Shown one piece after another: positions 8,444-52,892 of a stretch of 64,000 nt of DNA; the stretch's first letter is position 1; each line of letters begins with the position of its first letter. The position numbers and the translations under genes were made by a program. The notes under the pieces were generated by a model that searched no databases, was not told the origin of the DNA, and saw only the letters and a list, made by a program, of their open reading frames with translations. Origin of the DNA: Nitrospira sp. Its GTDB lineage: Bacteria > Nitrospirota > Nitrospiria > Nitrospirales > Nitrospiraceae. The stretch covers positions 1,682,721-1,746,720 of the forward strand of contig JARFXR010000001.1 of the NCBI GenBank assembly GCA_029194535.1, written 5' to 3'.

Positions 8444-8817
8444 AATATTCCAGCTACGTGGGAGTTCTGAGTCGGAGTTCTTGGTAGTGGCTCAGTTGGC
8501 CATCAGAACCACTGAGGTGTGTCATTCCCGCGGAAGCGGAAATCCAGTCAAGGCCGTCTCATCAGTATGAAGTCTTGATCGAGGAGTGGATGCCAGCTGG
8601 AGCCTGCCCTCGACACCGATCGAGGGCGGGCATGACGCAAGAGGAAACTGACCCACTACGCCGCTTCTTCCCTGTGGCTCTTCTAACTGAGCCAATTTCT
8701 TACGCCCTTCAGTGAAATCCGCTTCACCCACGACAGTGTATCGCCGATAGGCGAATTCTGCCTTCTGCTGTCCTTCCTAAATCCCTGGCGAATTGTCGAA
8801 GAGACCTGATGTGAGGA
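8444..8817. other. Intergenic stretch holding repeat B and a possible gene remnant
   Basis: Apart from repeat B (8519-8661) there is only a short leftward open stretch (about 8660-8790). It encodes a plausible-looking peptide (FAYRRYTVVGEADFTEGRKK and following residues) that begins after a stop codon and runs into the repeat. It could be the tail of a gene disrupted by the repeat. Confidence 0.35.
8519..8661 (+). repeat. Dispersed ~143-bp repeat B, copy 1
   Basis: It matches 37102-37244 in the opposite orientation. It begins with the palindrome-like GTCATTCCCGCGGAAGCGG and holds an inner inverted repeat CCCTCGAC-ACC-GATCGAGGG. It resembles the short palindromic intergenic repeats found in many proteobacterial and Nitrospira genomes. 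Confidence 0.85.
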
Positions 8818-9273
8818 TCAGCTGGGAAGACGAGGATCGAACCTAAACGGAACGGCACTGGTCCAGGTTATCTGGGAAAAGTTGGGGTGAGAAGGATTGA
8901 GGAGATAATTCCACTCGTGGTCTATCACGACTGATGGAACCTTTAACACGGGGGATTTACCGTTGTGAGCCCACGTCGTGCCGCACTCCTGTAAGGTCAC
9001 AGGGATCATTGTATCCTTCCAATTACCCGGCAAATCGGAAGGAAAGATCGTTTCTATCGCAAGGCCGTCTGGAATCGTTGCTTGCACGCTGATCAGCGAG
9101 TCAGGAAGCATGTCCGAGTCAACATGAACAAGGTATTCGAGGACCGCGAGCGAAAGTGTGCCGGAGGTATAGACGACTCGTGTTCCGGGTCTATTCCAAC
9201 GTCCTCCATACCGTCTCGCTCCCTCTCCGTCTGGGGCAACATGCTTCTTGAGCGTGAGGCGCCAGACGACCAC
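8818..9273 (-). CDS. RES-domain toxin
   Basis: This 151-residue RES family protein carries the hallmark GGRWN (23-27), VVYTSGTLSLAVLEYLVH with Tyr35 and Glu46, and the C-terminal WTSAVPFRFDPRL. RES toxins (MbcT, ParT and relatives) are NAD+-degrading or ADP-ribosyltransferase-fold enzymes held in check by an Xre/DUF2384 antitoxin. The GTG start immediately follows the antitoxin TAA, so translation is coupled. A full-length fold and conserved polar residues suggest it is active. Confidence 0.9.
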   Translation of the reverse strand: MVVWRLTLKKHVAPDGEGARRYGGRWNRPGTRVVYTSGTLSLAVLEYLVHVDSDMLPDSLISVQATIPDGLAIETIFPSDLPGNWKDTMIPVTLQECGTTWAHNGKSPVLKVPSVVIDHEWNYLLNPSHPNFSQITWTSAVPFRFDPRLPS

Positions 9274-44605: not shown

Positions 44606-44814
44606 GGGATGGCCTCCATACAAGTGAACGTCAAATCCGCGGCTTTGGGATCGCCAGTCTAGCGCAACGGGTCGTCCGACTGCATGGATTTCTGCGGATC
44701 GGAAGAGTGCAGGAACCTACCGGAGGTACTCTGGTCGGCCCTAGAGACATCCCTAGTAGTCGAGCGGTTGTCATGCCGCATAATGACCGGTTAAGAAGTG
44801 AGAGGGAGAGGATG

Positions 44815-46065
44815 ATGATAAGAAGACGGCCAGGCATGCCGCTCGAGGATCAGCCGTCCCAGCTTGACGAGGCGGAGGAGCCTGGACATCCCGATGCTCA
44901 TCCGACGCTGCAGGGCAATCGAAAGCTCGCCGTCGCCTGGGTCTGCGCGACACTCGTGGGGGCTACCGCCCTCTGGTACTCGGCTGCGGCGCAGTATTCC
45001 CCAACCGTCACGCTCTTCGTGCTGACCGGGCTCCTCGTCGGCTACGCAGGCTATGGGTATTCCGTTGCAAAGAAGAATGCGACTCAGTTCGCGGATTCCC
45101 TCTATTACATGGGCTTTCTGTGGGCGCTGTTTGCCCTCATCGGGGCCTTCATACTGTGGCCGGCTCCCAAGTTGACTACGGAAGCCGTCCTTGCCGCGTT
45201 CGGCTACGCGCTGGTCACGACCTGTTGCGGCATGCTGCTTCGCCTTGCGACTCTCTATTTTCAGGACACGCCCTCCGACCGGCTTCTCGACGTTCAGGAT
45301 ACCATCGATCAACGCGTGTCGAAGCTGTTGCACGAGATCACGGAAGCGAAGATGGAAATCTCGTCGTTCAGAGCTCTCGCCGCCAATGATCTGCGCGGCG
45401 CACTGCACGATCTGGTACGGTCGTTATCGGAAGCGCGCGAAAAGCTTGCCGAACAGCAGCACACGATGAGCAAGACGATGATAGCGGGACTGGAATCTTC
45501 CGTGAAGGATATTCTGAGCCGGCTTTCGACCATGCAGATGCCGCAGGAAATTCTCACGGCGGAGGTGAGTAAACTCGTCGCCGCGCTGGGGAAGCGGGGA
45601 GAAAGTTTCGAGGCGGCGGCGCAGAAGCTGGAGGAAGGCTTGGCTCGAACCGCCGAGACGGTGACGTCGTTCGGGGAATCCTTGTACGGAGCGGAAGGCG
45701 TCGGACAGGTCGAAGCGGCGGTGCAGGAATTATCCGGAACGCTCAAAGAGCGAACGGAGCAATTTCTCGCGATGACGACCGCCTTCGAGCGGAGTCGTGC
45801 TGAATTGGACGGTCAACTCGACGGGCTACAGTCGTTGCGCTCGTCGTTCAGCTCAGTCTCCGCGAGACTGTCCGCGTTCGAAACGGAGTTGAAGGACATC
45901 TCGGCCATCTCGATGTCGGCCGACGTCAAAAACGGCCTGCTCAACGTCCAGAAGGCCATTCAGTCGAGTCTCGAGGCCAGCAGAACGATCGAGGCCACCA
46001 TGCGCGACGTCATGTCGTTTCTGAGGGTGCGTGTGACCGAGGAACATTCCGGTGATAAGAACTGA
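44815..46065 (+). CDS. Four-TM membrane protein with long coiled-coil tail
   Basis: This 416-residue protein has a short Pro/acidic N-terminus, four membrane helices (about 35-150; KLAVAWVCATLVGATALWYS, VTLFVLTGLLVGYAGYGYSV, SLYYMGFLWALFALIGAFIL, AAFGYALVTTCCGMLLRLAT) and a coiled-coil tail of about 260 residues. The tail carries repeated helix patterns (LEEGLARTAETVTSFGESL, LSARLSAFETELKD) resembling chemoreceptor or MotA-tail bundles. ATG 44815 has GAGGGAGAGG upstream. It overlaps the next gene by 14 bases. No known family is claimed; the architecture recalls ZorA/MotA-like complexes without their sequence motifs. Confidence 0.75.
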   Translation: MIRRRPGMPLEDQPSQLDEAEEPGHPDAHPTLQGNRKLAVAWVCATLVGATALWYSAAAQYSPTVTLFVLTGLLVGYAGYGYSVAKKNATQFADSLYYMGFLWALFALIGAFILWPAPKLTTEAVLAAFGYALVTTCCGMLLRLATLYFQDTPSDRLLDVQDTIDQRVSKLLHEITEAKMEISSFRALAANDLRGALHDLVRSLSEAREKLAEQQHTMSKTMIAGLESSVKDILSRLSTMQMPQEILTAEVSKLVAALGKRGESFEAAAQKLEEGLARTAETVTSFGESLYGAEGVGQVEAAVQELSGTLKERTEQFLAMTTAFERSRAELDGQLDGLQSLRSSFSSVSARLSAFETELKDISAISMSADVKNGLLNVQKAIQSSLEASRTIEATMRDVMSFLRVRVTEEHSGDKN

Positions 46066-46717
46066 GTCCCGCACGGATCCGGTCCTTGGGCTGTCGCTGG
46101 TGCAGGTGGTTCTCCTGCTTGTCTTTGCGGTTCTGTTGATCCACGTCACGGACAAGGGCGCAAGCGGGCAACAGGAGGCGCGTCAATCTGAGCCTGCGCA
46201 GCTTGAGGCTTCCCAGGCCGCCGCTCAGCCGGCGACGGCGCCCATGCGCGACGACTCGGGCCTTCAGGCGAAGCTTGACGAGGCCGCGGAGCACAACCGG
46301 CAGTTGGAGAAGCGCCTCACCGAGATGACCGGGCTGGTCGATGACGTGAAAGGCATGGTCGGCGCGAAGGCCGCGTCACGAGACGGATTTCACGAGGCGG
46401 TGGAGACCTTGAAGCGCGGGTATGTGCTGTGCCAGAAGGACAATGTCTTGATCGAGGCCAGCATTCAACACGGAGAGGAATCCATCCGCGTGATCGGAGA
46501 GGTGCCGTCCGACCTGGACACCAACCTGGCGAAGGGGGAGTTCACCTCGGATCTCGATCAGATCGTCCCCTTCGTGCAGGACGTCTATCAATATGAAAAG
46601 GACCGCAAGTGCCGATTCAATTACCGGCTGCAGTACGCGACGGACAACGACTACAGAAAAGCGCGGGAACGGTTCGAGAAGTATTTCTTTCCGGAAAAGA
46701 TGACGAAAATCCAATGA
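46052..46717 (+). CDS. Single-TM protein, coupled partner of the coiled-coil membrane protein
   Basis: This 221-residue protein has one N-terminal membrane helix (VQVVLLLVFAVLLIHV), a helical region rich in Ala/Gln (about 40-120) and a C-terminal soluble domain with well-spaced aromatic and acidic residues (LKRGYVLCQKDNVLIEASIQ, SDLDQIVPFVQDVYQYEKD, RFNYRLQYATDNDYRKARER). The single helix plus soluble domain is like MotB/ZorB/ExbD partners, but the C-terminus is not an OmpA domain. It starts with GTG inside the preceding gene (14-base overlap), so the pair is made together. Confidence 0.72.
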   Translation: MIRTESRTDPVLGLSLVQVVLLLVFAVLLIHVTDKGASGQQEARQSEPAQLEASQAAAQPATAPMRDDSGLQAKLDEAAEHNRQLEKRLTEMTGLVDDVKGMVGAKAASRDGFHEAVETLKRGYVLCQKDNVLIEASIQHGEESIRVIGEVPSDLDTNLAKGEFTSDLDQIVPFVQDVYQYEKDRKCRFNYRLQYATDNDYRKARERFEKYFFPEKMTKIQ

Positions 46718-46780: not shown

Positions 46781-47155
46781 TCACGGCGGAAGTCCTTCTG
46801 GAGGATCGGCGAAGCGGGGCACTTGCGTCGATTTGGACCAGTCCGATACCACACCGCTTTCGAAAAACACGCGAAGCTCGGCGGTGAGACAGGGGTCGCG
46901 ACCGCCGGGAGGATACAACCACACTTCGATCGATCTTCCCTTGTGCTCGATGGTCTTTTTGCACATCGGCTCTCCGAACGCCAGATAGATCTGGTCGTGA
47001 TCCATTCCGCGCACGGCATAGCCGCGGTCGATAGCCCGTTTGATGTGATCGGGGTAGGTCGGGTACTTCTCCGTCATCAACCGGCCTCGCTCCGATTCGC
47101 AGCCGGCAAGAGAAAGGCTGAGCCCCAACCACAGGCAGAGCCAGAACCGAATCAT
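46781..47155 (-). CDS. BamE/SmpA-like lipoprotein
   Basis: This 124-residue lipoprotein has a signal peptide with lipobox LAGC (Cys near 19). The mature part has the BamE-like pattern GMDHDQIYLAFGEPMCKKTI followed by EVWLYPPGG and LRVFFESGVVSDW. BamE-type domains help outer-membrane assembly, but this domain is used widely; the precise role is open. It is convergent with the coiled-coil pair, 63 bases away. Confidence 0.8.
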   Translation of the reverse strand: MIRFWLCLWLGLSLSLAGCESERGRLMTEKYPTYPDHIKRAIDRGYAVRGMDHDQIYLAFGEPMCKKTIEHKGRSIEVWLYPPGGRDPCLTAELRVFFESGVVSDWSKSTQVPRFADPPEGLPP

Positions 47156-48787: not shown

Positions 48788-50251
48788 ATGAGTGGCCACG
48801 ATCCCTTCTACCAGGCCGTACTGGCGAGAGATCACCGATTCGACGGAAGGTTTTTCGTCGCAGTGAAGACGACGGGCATCTATTGTCGGCCGATCTGTCC
48901 GGCCCGTCCCAAGCGGGAGAACGTCGAGTTCTTCAAGACGGCTCACGCGGCGGAACGAGCCGGCTATCGACCATGCCTGCGGTGCCGTCCAGAGTCGGCG
49001 CCGGGATCTCCTGCGTGGAACGGCAAACAGACCACCATCGAGCGGGCGCTCAAACTCATCGCTCAAGGCGCGCTTGAAGAGCAAACCGAAGAGGTGTTCG
49101 CCGATCGGCTGGGAGTGACGGCGCGGCATTTGAGACGGCTGTTTGAGAAGGAACTCGGGCAAACTCCCAAGCAGCTTCACGACGGCACCAGACTCGACTT
49201 CGCTCGGAAGTTGATTGTGGAAACGTCGCTTCCATTCACGGAGATCGCCTTCTCCGCGGGTTTTCGCTCGCTGCGCCGATTCAACGATGTCGTCAAGAAA
49301 CGGTTCCATCGGCCGCCTTCCGCGCTTCGATCCTCGTGCAAGGCTGTGCGGGCGACGCCCCAGCTCCGGCTGACTCTTCCCTACCGACCTCCGCTGGATT
49401 GGCAGGCTCTGCTCAATTACTATCGGAACCATCGAGTCTCCGGTGTTGAAACCATCGAGGGAGAAGGGTATGCGCGTGTGTTCAGGCTGGACGACCAGGA
49501 AACAGTCGGCTTCTTTCGAGCGAGACCGAGCGGCGAGGAGCCTGAATTGATCCTTGAGGTCTCTCTGTCGGATACGCGACCCCTGTTGAGGGTTGTGCAG
49601 CGCATCCGGCACATGTTCGACTTGGATGCCGATCCGACCGTGATCGCGAAGGTGTTTGAGCAGTCGAGCGTCTTCGCGGCGCTTCCGCGCAAGTATCCGG
49701 GAACCAGGCTGGCTCGGGGGTTTGATCCATTTGAAACCGCGATCGCGACGATCCTCGGTCAGGTGATCTCCGTCGCCCATGCTTCGCGGCTCATGAGTCG
49801 ACTCGCGGCGCACTATGGCGAAGAGATCCGTCATCCCGTTTCCGGAGAGCAAGTTCGGGTATTTCCCAGGCCGGGCATTCTCGCAGAGTCTGATCTGCGC
49901 AGCCTGGCCATCACGGACCAAAAGCGTTCGACGATTCGCGAATTCTCGGCGCGGGTCGCCGAAGGAACCATCCGGCTCGAACCGGCGCAGGATCCGGAGG
50001 AATTCAAACGCACCGTTCGGACCGTGAAGGGCATCGGGGCATGGAGCGCCGAATATATGGCGCTCAGAGCCCTCGGCGACACGGACGCCTTTCCGGCGAC
50101 GGATCTGATCATACGTCGATTCTTGAAGGTCAATCCGCAATTCGACTCGGGTGCCGTCAGGCCCTGGCGCAGCTACGCGGCGGTCGGTCTCTGGAACGAA
50201 CAGGCTCGGGCGCCCGTCAAAGAAAGGAAGAAAGGACATGCTGCGGTATAA
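48788..50251 (+). CDS. Ada N-terminal/AraC/AlkA fusion: alkylation sensor and 3-methyladenine glycosylase
   Basis: This 487-residue protein has three parts. The Ada zinc domain (about 10-85) carries the methyl-acceptor and zinc Cys residues in GIYCRPICPAR and RPCLRCRP. An AraC-type helix-turn-helix follows (about 85-185; ARHLRRLFEKELGQTP, FTEIAFSAGFRSLRRFNDVV). An AlkA-like N-terminal and HhH-GPD glycosylase domain completes it (about 190-480; FDPFETAIATILGQVISV, VKGIGAWSAEYMALRALGD and catalytic Asp in FPATDLIIRR). It senses methyl phosphotriesters and excises alkylated bases. It lacks the methyltransferase half of E. coli Ada; that activity is encoded by the overlapping next gene. Confidence 0.94.
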   Translation: MSGHDPFYQAVLARDHRFDGRFFVAVKTTGIYCRPICPARPKRENVEFFKTAHAAERAGYRPCLRCRPESAPGSPAWNGKQTTIERALKLIAQGALEEQTEEVFADRLGVTARHLRRLFEKELGQTPKQLHDGTRLDFARKLIVETSLPFTEIAFSAGFRSLRRFNDVVKKRFHRPPSALRSSCKAVRATPQLRLTLPYRPPLDWQALLNYYRNHRVSGVETIEGEGYARVFRLDDQETVGFFRARPSGEEPELILEVSLSDTRPLLRVVQRIRHMFDLDADPTVIAKVFEQSSVFAALPRKYPGTRLARGFDPFETAIATILGQVISVAHASRLMSRLAAHYGEEIRHPVSGEQVRVFPRPGILAESDLRSLAITDQKRSTIREFSARVAEGTIRLEPAQDPEEFKRTVRTVKGIGAWSAEYMALRALGDTDAFPATDLIIRRFLKVNPQFDSGAVRPWRSYAAVGLWNEQARAPVKERKKGHAAV

Positions 50252-50741
50252 GCACGTGGAGACTGCGGTGGGTCGGCTCAGGCTGGTGGCGGATGAGTCG
50301 AGTCTGCTCGCGGTGCTGTGGCCGAGCGATCGGGCGACCAGAGTCAGACTCGAGGCTCTGTGCGAAGACGCGCAGCATACTGTGTTCGCCGAGGTCGAAC
50401 GCCAATTGGCTGAGTACTTCGAGGGTAAGCGGACGACGTTTGACCTGCCGATTCGCATGCACGGCACAGAGTTTCAGAAGCGAGTATGGCAAGAGCTGCT
50501 CCGGATCCCCTACGGTCAGACTCGGAGCTATGGTGAGCTGGCACGCGCGATCGGAAAGAGATCCGCGTCGCGGGCGGTCGGTCTGGCCAACAGCAGGAAT
50601 CCCTTGTCCATCATCGTGCCCTGCCATCGCGTGATCGGCGCGACGGGAAAACTGACGGGCTTCGCGGGAGGAATCGAGACCAAAGCGAGGCTGCTCAAAC
50701 TCGAAGGAGCTTGTACGAGCGCGGCGGATAGAACGGGATAG
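50238..50741 (+). CDS. ogt: Methylated-DNA-protein-cysteine methyltransferase
   Basis: This 167-residue O6-alkylguanine-DNA alkyltransferase has FQKRVWQELLRIPYGQTRSY, SRAVGLANSRNPLSIIVPCH with acceptor Cys in PCHRVIG, and LTGFAGGIETKARLL. It repairs O6-methylguanine by transferring the methyl group to its own Cys. ATG 50238 has AAAGGA close upstream and overlaps the Ada-AlkA gene by 14 bases, so the two are coupled. Confidence 0.96.
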   Translation: MLRYKHVETAVGRLRLVADESSLLAVLWPSDRATRVRLEALCEDAQHTVFAEVERQLAEYFEGKRTTFDLPIRMHGTEFQKRVWQELLRIPYGQTRSYGELARAIGKRSASRAVGLANSRNPLSIIVPCHRVIGATGKLTGFAGGIETKARLLKLEGACTSAADRTG

Positions 50742-50803: not shown

Positions 50804-51244
50804 TTACGACTTTTGCTTTTCGAGTCCTACCAATTTTTGGTCGGCACCATACGTGAGATGATAGACGACGAGCCTATCCTTCATGGCGATTTCAGCCGGA
50901 GTAAATATGAGCTCGGTGAGACCGACTGTGAAGATGTCGCCTCCCAAGTAAAATAGCCCCGTCAAGAATCGCGTCGAGCCCCGATGTGCATCGGGATCTA
51001 GAACATACCGATCATCATAGCCACCATTGTCGAGTGTGGTGAAGTTGTCGGGTTGTCCGAGTTCGGCAATTACGGCCGATCGCGGAACGCCGAGTTGCAT
51101 GACGTTCACATCACCCCTATAACTCGATCTATTGGCCACCATGAGAACCGAACAGCCTGAGGATAAGAGGCTGACCGCCAAGAGCAAGAGTATTATGATG
51201 GAAACGGCATGGGGACTCTTCATGCTGGGCATTTGAGTTCTCAT
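50804..51244 (-). CDS. Hypothetical lipoprotein
   Basis: This 146-residue protein has a type II signal peptide (SIIILLLLAVSLLSSGC; Cys near 31). The mature part has MQLGVPRSAVIAELGQPDNF, similar to BamE-like folds, then a Gly-rich hydrophobic stretch (LTGLFYLGGDIFTVGLTELI) found in envelope lipoproteins. ATG 51244 has AGGAGGTG upstream, which decides the start. It is probably in the outer membrane; function unknown. Confidence 0.75.
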   Translation of the reverse strand: MRTQMPSMKSPHAVSIIILLLLAVSLLSSGCSVLMVANRSSYRGDVNVMQLGVPRSAVIAELGQPDNFTTLDNGGYDDRYVLDPDAHRGSTRFLTGLFYLGGDIFTVGLTELIFTPAEIAMKDRLVVYHLTYGADQKLVGLEKQKS

Positions 51245-51568
51245 ACCCACCTCCTGCGAGTCGCTCATACAAGACTCGCCGTTACGGCTGCTTGACTGAC
51301 CCACCCTGTGCCATGCGCAGAGACGCTTTACTGATCGATCTATTTGCTATGAGTGCAAATCAGGTGCCTGATGCGCCAGGTTGTGATTTGATGATTAACT
51401 TCTGATTTTAGGAGGGGCAATTCGCACGATTAGGCTGATCGCCGTCCGCCTTTCCGACGGCAGTACGAAGCGGAAGAGATCCAATCTGAGTCGGAACAGA
51501 TTCAAATGAAGAGCTTGAAATGGTGGACTAAGATGATGGAATTGTTTCTGTCACACCGGTTCGCTCCT
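51245..51568. other. Intergenic stretch without a gene
   Basis: The sequence is AT-richer than its neighbours (around 51340-51420). No RNA, repeat or reading frame with a ribosome binding site is supported; it probably holds the promoter of the leftward lipoprotein gene. Confidence 0.5.
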
Positions 51569-51937: not shown

Positions 51938-52160
51938 GTACAGCTCCTCTCTGATGGTAAGAGTGTCGAGCAAGGTTAAGTGGATCGGATACTATCCTAA
52001 CAGGCCGGCGAAAACCATTTCGCGGTGTCCCCGTTGCTGGGAACTGGGGCAGGCAGCGGCTGCGCCGGAGCCAGCCCCCGCGGCTTGAAGCTTCACCAGG
52101 ACTTGCGTCAGAATGGAACCTCGATAGTGTTTTCTTGCGCGAAGCTTGCCGAGGCCGGCT

Positions 52161-52892
52161 ATGCTGCGATGCCCGCGACTCCGGAGCATGATCGCAACAG
52201 GATTTCTTGTCGTATCGGTAGGTGTCGGCATGGCTTCCGCATCCTCGACCGCCGCAACGGAGCAAGATCCGGCCACTTCTCAGGGACGTGCCGTTCACGT
52301 TGCCGACGAAACGCCGCCCTCCATGAACCAACCCCCGGTTGCCGACGGGGTCGTGGATCGCTATCTGCTGCACCCTCGCGGGGTCGTGAACGGACTGCTG
52401 CTGCGTGACGGATCGCAAGTACATGTCACCTACCGCGCTGCTGATGGGCTCATACAAAGTATTCAACCGGGCGATCATGTACGTGTGCACGGGAGGCGCA
52501 GCGCGGACTCGCCACTCGTGACCCCCGACGTCATCGTGAATGTGACGGACGGCAAGTCGTTCACCATTCCCGACCGGCTTGATCTTCCCATTCCTCCTCC
52601 GGAGGTGCGCCCGGGGGCCAATGAGATGAAAGCCGCCGGCACCATTCAAGTCCTGCTCTATGATTACATCAAGGGCGTCGTCAACGGCATGGTCTTGTCC
52701 GACGAGACACAGATCCGTTTGCCGCCCGATGTCGGAGCGCAATTGTCCGCATCGTTGCAACGGAACATGGAAGTGGTCGTCGAAGGCTACGGCACGATCA
52801 CCAGCTATGGGCGCGCGTTGGAGGCCATCGCCATCGGCCGGAAAGGCCACCCCCTGACGCCGCTCGATGCTTCAACCAAGCAGCTCCGCTGA
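52161..52892 (+). CDS. Exported protein with two internal repeats
   Basis: This 243-residue protein has a signal peptide (basic MLRCPRLRS then a hydrophobic run). Two similar beta-rich units follow: GVVNGLLLRDGSQVHVTY (near residue 75) and KGVVNGMVLSDETQIRLPPD (near 175), each followed by a GDHVRVHGR- or EVVVEGYG-type strand pair, suggesting duplicated OB-like folds. Starts at ATG 52161 or 52188 are possible; 52161 gives a proper basic n-region. Not recognised; periplasmic. Confidence 0.7.
   Translation: MLRCPRLRSMIATGFLVVSVGVGMASASSTAATEQDPATSQGRAVHVADETPPSMNQPPVADGVVDRYLLHPRGVVNGLLLRDGSQVHVTYRAADGLIQSIQPGDHVRVHGRRSADSPLVTPDVIVNVTDGKSFTIPDRLDLPIPPPEVRPGANEMKAAGTIQVLLYDYIKGVVNGMVLSDETQIRLPPDVGAQLSASLQRNMEVVVEGYGTITSYGRALEAIAIGRKGHPLTPLDASTKQLR

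Follow-up and report, generated by a model that had tools for sequence, protein, structure and literature searches.

The two overlapping genes at positions 44812 to 46717 of the window, the 64,000-nucleotide stretch of Nitrospira sp. DNA analysed here, encode a four-TM protein with a long helical tail (A) and a single-TM partner (B) that belong to a hitherto unnamed family, which also includes a four-gene ZorB-like cassette. The reading that we favour, held with a little less than even confidence, is that the pair is a stator-like complex cut loose from this cassette, probably uncoupled from ion flow and kept as a passive transducer or scaffold. Pairs found on their own, outside a cassette, are referred to here as solo pairs. 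The features of the window pair are as follows.

44812..46065, plus strand: gene A, four-TM protein with a long helical tail, 417 aa; open frame with an ATG start and a stop ending at 46065, seven homologues, dN/dS 0.11–0.27
44926..44982, plus strand: A TM1, residues 39–57; hydropathy scan
45013..45069, plus strand: A TM2, residues 68–86; hydropathy scan
45100..45156, plus strand: A TM3, residues 97–115, with the best-conserved block D-S-x-Y-Y-M-G-F-L-W-A; hydropathy scan and alignments
45124..45126, plus strand: A Ala105 in TM3; Ala in all seven solo pairs, Thr in the gene 3 protein of all 13 cassettes
45184..45240, plus strand: A TM4, residues 125–143, F-G-Y-A-L-V-x-T-x-x-G-M-x-x-R; hydropathy scan and alignments
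45220..45222, plus strand: A Thr137 in TM4; kept in all 18 solo and cassette proteins that were aligned
45268..46047, plus strand: A helical tail, residues 153–412, about 260 residues, presumably cytoplasmic; model and helical periodicity
46052..46717, plus strand: gene B, single-TM partner with a C-terminal domain (probably periplasmic), 221 aa; open frame with a GTG start, seven homologues, dN/dS 0.06–0.21
46085..46141, plus strand: B single TM helix, residues 12–30, GLSLVQVVLLLVF; hydropathy scan, model helix 16–37
46103..46105, plus strand: B Gln18 (CAG); acidic in all 13 cassettes (12 Glu, one Asp), in solo pairs Gln in five of seven and Glu in two of seven
46256..46369, plus strand: B helical linker, residues 69–106; model
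46421..46687, plus strand: B C-terminal b-b-a-b-a domain, residues 124–212, with conserved CRF..Y....YF.P; model pLDDT about 75–85, alignment, profile versus shuffles

A first-pass annotation had described overlapping genes for a four-TM protein with a helical tail of about 260 residues and a one-TM partner with a C-terminal domain, and this layout is borne out by the reading frames, the hydropathy scans, the structure models and seven homologous pairs. It had opened gene A at an adjacent ATG (44815); the gene itself is real, and its start is placed here at 44812. From the positive-inside charge pattern, both ends of A would lie in the cytoplasm and the C-terminus of B in the periplasm.

That the pair is real, and not a product of chance, is confirmed by the seven homologous pairs, which always overlap and have low dN/dS values. 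A TM profile found the solo pair in seven of 175 genomes of the family, representing three of 22 genera (G000, which is the window's genome, G001, G004, G005, G006, G392 and G421), and Nitrospira moscoviensis (NZ_CP011801), to which G421 is assigned by position, is among the named relatives. Across the seven pairs, identity to the window proteins is 52–84 % for A and 55–80 % for B, and the two reading frames overlap in every one, by 14 nt in the window, L002, L007 and L008 and by 11 nt in L005, L006 and L009. Ten comparisons gave dN/dS values of 0.06–0.27, with synonymous sites near saturation in some, and both A and B are under purifying selection. The flanking genes mostly differ between solo loci, a chromosomal neighbourhood being common to the window and its close relative G001, and, because neighbours are mostly not shared, the pair itself is the unit.

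Nine window neighbours scanned with Pfam gave an O-methyltransferase, an alcohol dehydrogenase, Ada/AlkA, PepSY, LTXXQ, a weak DUF2846 and three genes without a match. A defence-island context, raised in the first-pass annotation, does not hold for the pair: no defence gene or Zorya partner is found among these nine ordinary neighbours, flanks differ between most solo loci, and mobile or defence-like surroundings occur at some cassette loci only. Two small lipoprotein-like genes without a Pfam match lie near the pair (46781–47155 and 50804–51304). At L011, a homologue of the 50804–51304 gene adjoins the pair (8623–9027) and is followed by a homologue of window 52146–52892. The window also carries overlapping Ada/AlkA-type and (by eye) Ogt-type alkylation-repair genes at 48788–50741.

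Searches of Pfam, NCBIfam, PHROGs and PADLOC placed neither A nor B in a family, A giving generic coil matches only and B nothing meaningful. Matches to SMC, HmpF, tape measure, LmuB, JetC and ZorA-tail models were rejected as family assignments, their coverage being limited to the tail of A. At E values up to 1, PF01618 (the MotA/TolQ/ExbB proton channel family) did not match A and PF02472 (ExbD/TolR) did not match B; within the same genome and at the same limit, each profile found two other loci, which correspond to two ordinary ExbB/ExbD-type pairs. With the same limit, Pfam did not report OmpA for B, and MotB_plug is absent from G000. These searches agree with the first-pass annotation that neither the MotA motif nor an OmpA domain is present in the window pair. 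Zorya profiles gave one ZorA match for A, in tail residues 165–395 (E 0.0021), and none for B, and when TM regions alone were run against PADLOC one of 18 members matched PDLC00637 (ZorA2), with a best E of 0.024, and the window member gave no match.

Direct homology to TolQ, TolR, MotA or MotB, sought with hhalign against alignments built from related genomes, was not significant. Solo A or cassette gene 3 reached probabilities under 3 against MotA/TolQ, full-length B gave a probability of 3.4 against MotB (score 23.5 versus 13–14 for reversed profiles), and the N-terminal 45 residues of B gave 19.8 (score 23.7 versus 11–12 reversed). Weak matches to the B profile in the phylum were rejected, L019 and L020 being true MotB genes beside MotA and L016, L017 and L018 being unrelated by eye. 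Among the weak matches to the A TM profile (L084–L090 and L092), the one inspected, L084, has no such pair at the locus. Viral contigs held no relatives of B, phage records no relatives of cassette gene 1, and plasmids no relatives of window B (one chance match, E 3) or of gene 4 at L093, and no convincing match came from searching PDB sequences with the profiles of A and B. No description of the cassette or the pair turned up in a limited set of open papers. With no known family assigned by profile and the two genes co-conserved in seven genomes, the original description of an uncharacterised coupled pair stands.

AlphaFold modelled A poorly (mean pLDDT 48.5), as an all-helical protein with a long helical tail; its model of B is partly confident, with a helix at residues 69–106 and the b-b-a-b-a domain at about 124–212 at pLDDT about 75–85. 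The tail of A, previously called a coiled coil, is amphipathic at the helical period of 3.6 (as strong in one of 2000 shuffles, and in none of 200 for 42-residue windows), and no amphipathicity signal was found in it at the canonical heptad period of 3.5 (1228 of 2000 shuffles as strong). Supercoiling of the tail as a coiled coil is rated only as likely because the signal is seen at 3.6 and is absent at 3.5. The top VIA row for the B domain was the periplasmic domain of TolR (2jwk; Z 5.1, 3.1 Å, 70 of 74 residues), with ribosomal, CoaX and actin-like chains below it at Z 3–4.3. Rows for the A model, over residues 63–152, included PomA (8zyv, Z 7.4) and TolQ (9ddn, Z 6.9) among many helical matches. 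These rows agree with a stator plan, at Z values of 5–7 that lie in the range the tool itself terms common and, for A, on a poor model, and the lists leave room for families that do not appear in them. Foldseek with B gave no match at E ≤0.001.

Relatives of a different kind emerged when the A TM-domain profile was run against 395 Nitrospirota genomes, which yielded two remote relatives, in G001 (E 5.8e-7) and G207 (E 2.7e-5). The first of these genomes holds both a solo pair and a cassette; the second belongs to a different family within the phylum. Each of the two loci has four genes in the same orientation, with the A-like gene third and a B-like gene after it. Gene 1 of G001 matches 24 plasmid records at 25–31 % identity (Rhizobium 12, Paracoccus 6, Sinorhizobium 3, Microvirga 2, Tistrella 1), and gene 3 of R. 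johnstonii also matches 24 plasmid records, with identical genus counts. R. johnstonii gene 4 matches 20 plasmid records (14 Rhizobium, 3 Sinorhizobium, 2 Microvirga and 1 Tistrella), two of the Rhizobium records over the C-terminal part only, and no Paracoccus record. The 13 cassettes considered here comprise 11 of the 24 plasmid records and the two Nitrospirota loci; 11 of the 13 were aligned, and the unannotated L103 and L106 were checked for key residues only.

Profile comparisons show A and B to be homologous, at the level of sequence, to cassette genes 3 and 4. The TM region of solo A aligned with gene 3 at an hhalign probability of 98.9 and a score of 104 (reversed profiles about 16), and the N-terminus of solo B with gene 4 at a probability of 91 and a score of 36 (reversed 19–25), the match to plasmid-only gene 4 being weaker (score 34 versus reversed 26–27). 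Y78, D95, Y98, Y99, G101, F102, L109, F130, G131, T137 and R144 are invariant in a 14-sequence alignment of gene 3 and A proteins. The B-domain profile beats 300 of 300 shuffles on the C-terminus of each of the two Nitrospirota gene 4 proteins, with margins of only 2–3 bits, and did not report R. johnstonii gene 4 at all. By eye, the OmpA domain is absent from the two Nitrospirota proteins. Genes 1 and 2 were undetected at solo loci, and gene 1 is absent from G000; a weak match to gene 1 occurs in G073.

In the plasmid gene 4 proteins, Pfam placed an OmpA domain above the cut-off in L097, just below it in L105 and further below in L101, and detected none in L096. As a family, plasmid gene 4 gave an hhalign value of 97.6 against MotB, and Paracoccus gene 4 matches PADLOC ZorB2 at E 5.4e-25, its match to NF041787 lying far below the cut-off for that model. 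ZorA models match gene 3 mainly via the tail. The likeness to MotA/MotB, ExbB/ExbD or ZorA/ZorB that the first-pass annotation saw in the pair is upheld as to plan: cassette genes 3 and 4 have the same pairing and the OmpA domain of plasmid gene 4 has ZorB as its best match. Homology to MotA/TolQ was not found by sequence.

Cassette genes 1 and 2 gave no PADLOC or NCBIfam match, and no Pfam match above cut-off, in the members tested, and no PADLOC model matched genes 1 and 2 of L097, L105, L091 and L083 (gene 1 partial). Gene 1 (e.g. L097:8923–10371) encodes a protein of about 480 aa with membrane and helical parts, without a profile match and with 27 invariant columns over 11 sequences. Gene 2 (e.g. 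L097:10349–11173) encodes a one-TM protein without a family match, with invariant cysteines C55 and C118 (L097 numbering) and conserved LLDxTD and SDMxEHT motifs; a by-eye reading of it as vWA-like was dropped after hhalign against eight vWA segments gave a probability of 0.17.

A thermonuclease gene lies near the cassette in eight of the 13 loci and near none of the solo loci examined. At the second locus of G001 (L093:2658–17688), an AAA ATPase with DUF3696 and a thermonuclease lie on one side of the cassette and terminase-like and serine-recombinase genes on the other, the last three by frame reading, in a mobile island. Immediately upstream of the S. fredii cassette, and on the other strand, lie a CHAT-domain gene and a hypothetical gene (L104:6682–8687). 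With its ZorB-like partner and a nuclease gene often nearby, the unnamed four-gene cassette makes a concrete candidate for a defence system that the PADLOC copy searched does not contain; a defence role is plausible for the cassette and unproven for the solo pair.

The residues that distinguish solo pairs from cassettes lie in the TM helices. The TM3 motif is YYxGF[LI]xT in gene 3 of all 13 cassettes and YYMGFLWA in all seven solo A proteins, and the Thr of TM4 is kept in all 20 (13 cassettes and seven solo pairs). On the helix of gene 4, the residue that follows GL[ST]xx is an acid in every cassette (12 Glu and one Asp); the same axle position in solo B is Glu (GAA) in two of seven and Gln in the other five, including the window, with codons (CAG or CAA) that are a single base away from Glu. 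Where the first-pass annotation would look for a conserved Asp in the single helix, the cassettes have Glu or Asp, but the window and the other Gln-bearing solo pairs do not. The tree mixes Gln and Glu lineages, with moderate supports and at least two changes by our reading, and this mixture and the Glu kept in two of seven pairs suggest that the site may still be functionally important.

According to PMC6677748, PomA T158A (TM3), PomA T186A (TM4) and PomB D24N each abolish ion transport; PMC11890865 describes ZorB D24 as crucial for Zorya defence; and in PMC9389320 the protonated state is reported to be mimicked by MotB D22N. By analogy, A105 and Thr137 of A and Gln18 of B may be equivalent to PomA T158, PomA T186 and PomB D24, an equivalence resting on topology, on spacing and on the ungapped match of SLVQVVLLL to PLVDVVLVL of TolR. 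The register of the axle site is ambiguous, Q18 falling on the TolR Asp when ungapped and the Asp falling at L16 in the MotB register. If the sites do correspond, the solo pairs carry the counterpart of T158A and, in most lineages, a neutral axle.

In the reading that we favour, A would form an outer ring in the inner membrane with its helical tail extending into the cytoplasm, and B would form the inner axle with its small domain in the periplasm. The pair would be a solo derivative of the four-gene Zorya-resembling cassette, with an ancestor that was probably ion-driven and carried an acid on the axle helix and Thr on two ring helices. On this view genes 1 and 2 would have been lost, all solo pairs would have exchanged the TM3 Thr for Ala and most of them the axle acid for Gln, and the pair that resulted has probably lost its coupling to ion flow. 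A change at the periplasmic domain of B could then alter the packing of A and B and move the cytoplasmic tail. The ring and axle roles, the direction of the residue changes, the loss of coupling and the transducer function are all putative. Against this reading stand the lack of significant MotA/TolQ profile similarity in gene 3 and solo A, the failure of PF01618 and PF02472 to find the pair, the common Z values and poor A model behind the structural rows, the Glu kept in two solo pairs, the ambiguous axle register, the weaker match to plasmid-only gene 4 and the retention of Thr137.

The retained Thr bears on another explanation, which we consider unlikely, that A/B is still an ion-driven stator in which Gln or Glu is tolerated on the axle and protons pass via water and either Thr137 or, at the entrance of TM3, Asp95, by analogy with GldLM, where the essential acid is on the ring protein. 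Neither Thr137 nor D95 varies among the solo pairs and aligned cassettes, position 18 of B is only ever Gln or Glu in solo pairs and never hydrophobic, and E49 of the ring protein GldL is essential in GldLM (PMC8986121). However, there is no charged residue mid-helix in the TM segments of A, five of the seven pairs are without a TM carboxylate on B, and PomA T158A, the likely counterpart of A105, kills transport according to PMC6677748.

It is rather improbable that the pair is no mechanical stator at all but a plain coiled-coil scaffold anchored in the membrane and accompanied by an accessory single-pass protein; the likeness to the cassette would then come from a membrane scaffold common to both, and plasmid gene 4 would have gained its OmpA domain by a later fusion. 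Such a scaffold would fit the lack of profile similarity to MotA, TolQ or ExbB, the generic coil matches of the A tail (SMC, HmpF, tape measure) and the poor model of A, whereas the pair order, overlap and TM motifs kept from plasmid cassettes to solo pairs, the MotB/ZorB-type partner in plasmids, and substitutions that sit at the sites expected from stators all argue against it. A remnant or minimal anti-phage element, with the pair a solo Zorya-like membrane sensor acting with partners encoded elsewhere, is very improbable, for although its cassette relatives lie on plasmids and, in G001, beside AAA ATPase, nuclease, terminase-like and serine-recombinase genes, and plasmid gene 4 resembles ZorB, there are no defence genes beside the solo pair, which is under purifying selection in a chromosomal neighbourhood common with G001, and ZorAB alone is reported in PMC8565338 to be insufficient for defence.

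To return to a stator-like complex detached from its cassette, a bolder form of this reading, which we regard as doubtful, would make the solo pairs a natural family of ion-uncoupled 5:2 stators that have lost the ring Thr and the axle acid and now serve as a non-motor envelope-to-cytoplasm signal rod, and would make their parent a new four-gene system, ion-driven and resembling Zorya, that plasmids of alphaproteobacteria (nodule bacteria among them) carry, often with a thermonuclease gene as neighbour. By definition a stator counts as a motor, and mutants that have lost the ion site are dead. If the bolder form is true, a conserved family that naturally carries the equivalents of two dead-mutant changes would allow the structural role of the 5:2 assembly to be told apart from its role as a motor, and cassette versus solo pair offers a ready comparison for reversion tests.

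Among the systems to which the window pair can be compared, the cassette of alphaproteobacterial plasmids and two Nitrospirota loci is the one with a gene 3 homologous to A in the TM domain and a gene 4 that has the TM signature, gene order and overlap in common with B, the C-terminus of Nitrospirota gene 4 also resembling that of B. The window pair differs from it in being without genes 1 and 2 and without an OmpA domain, and in having Ala for the TM3 Thr and Gln for the axle acid. Zorya ZorA/ZorB is alike in the long helical tail on the ring protein and the single-TM partner, and the OmpA domains of plasmid gene 4 match ZorB profiles, but none of ZorC to ZorG is present, the similarity of A and gene 3 to ZorA is confined to the tail or very weak, and B has no OmpA domain.

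TolQ/TolR and ExbB/ExbD have the same likely topology, the TolR periplasmic domain is the best structural row for the B domain and the TM signatures SLVQVVLLL and PLVDVVLVL align ungapped; however, profile similarity is not significant, A has one extra TM, a short TM2–TM3 loop and a long tail, and B has Gln at the Asp position. MotA/MotB and PomA/PomB resemble the pair in their four TM helices, the putative A5B2 plan and a Thr in TM4, and differ in that A has neither a MotA_ExbB match nor a large cytoplasmic domain between TM2 and TM3 and B has neither an OmpA domain nor the axle Asp. GldL/GldM, set beside the pair here by published description, is unlike it in that A has no acid inside its TM helices, and alike as a 5:2 motor reported (PMC8986121, PMC9389320) to bear its essential acid on the ring protein and to have little in common with MotAB in sequence.
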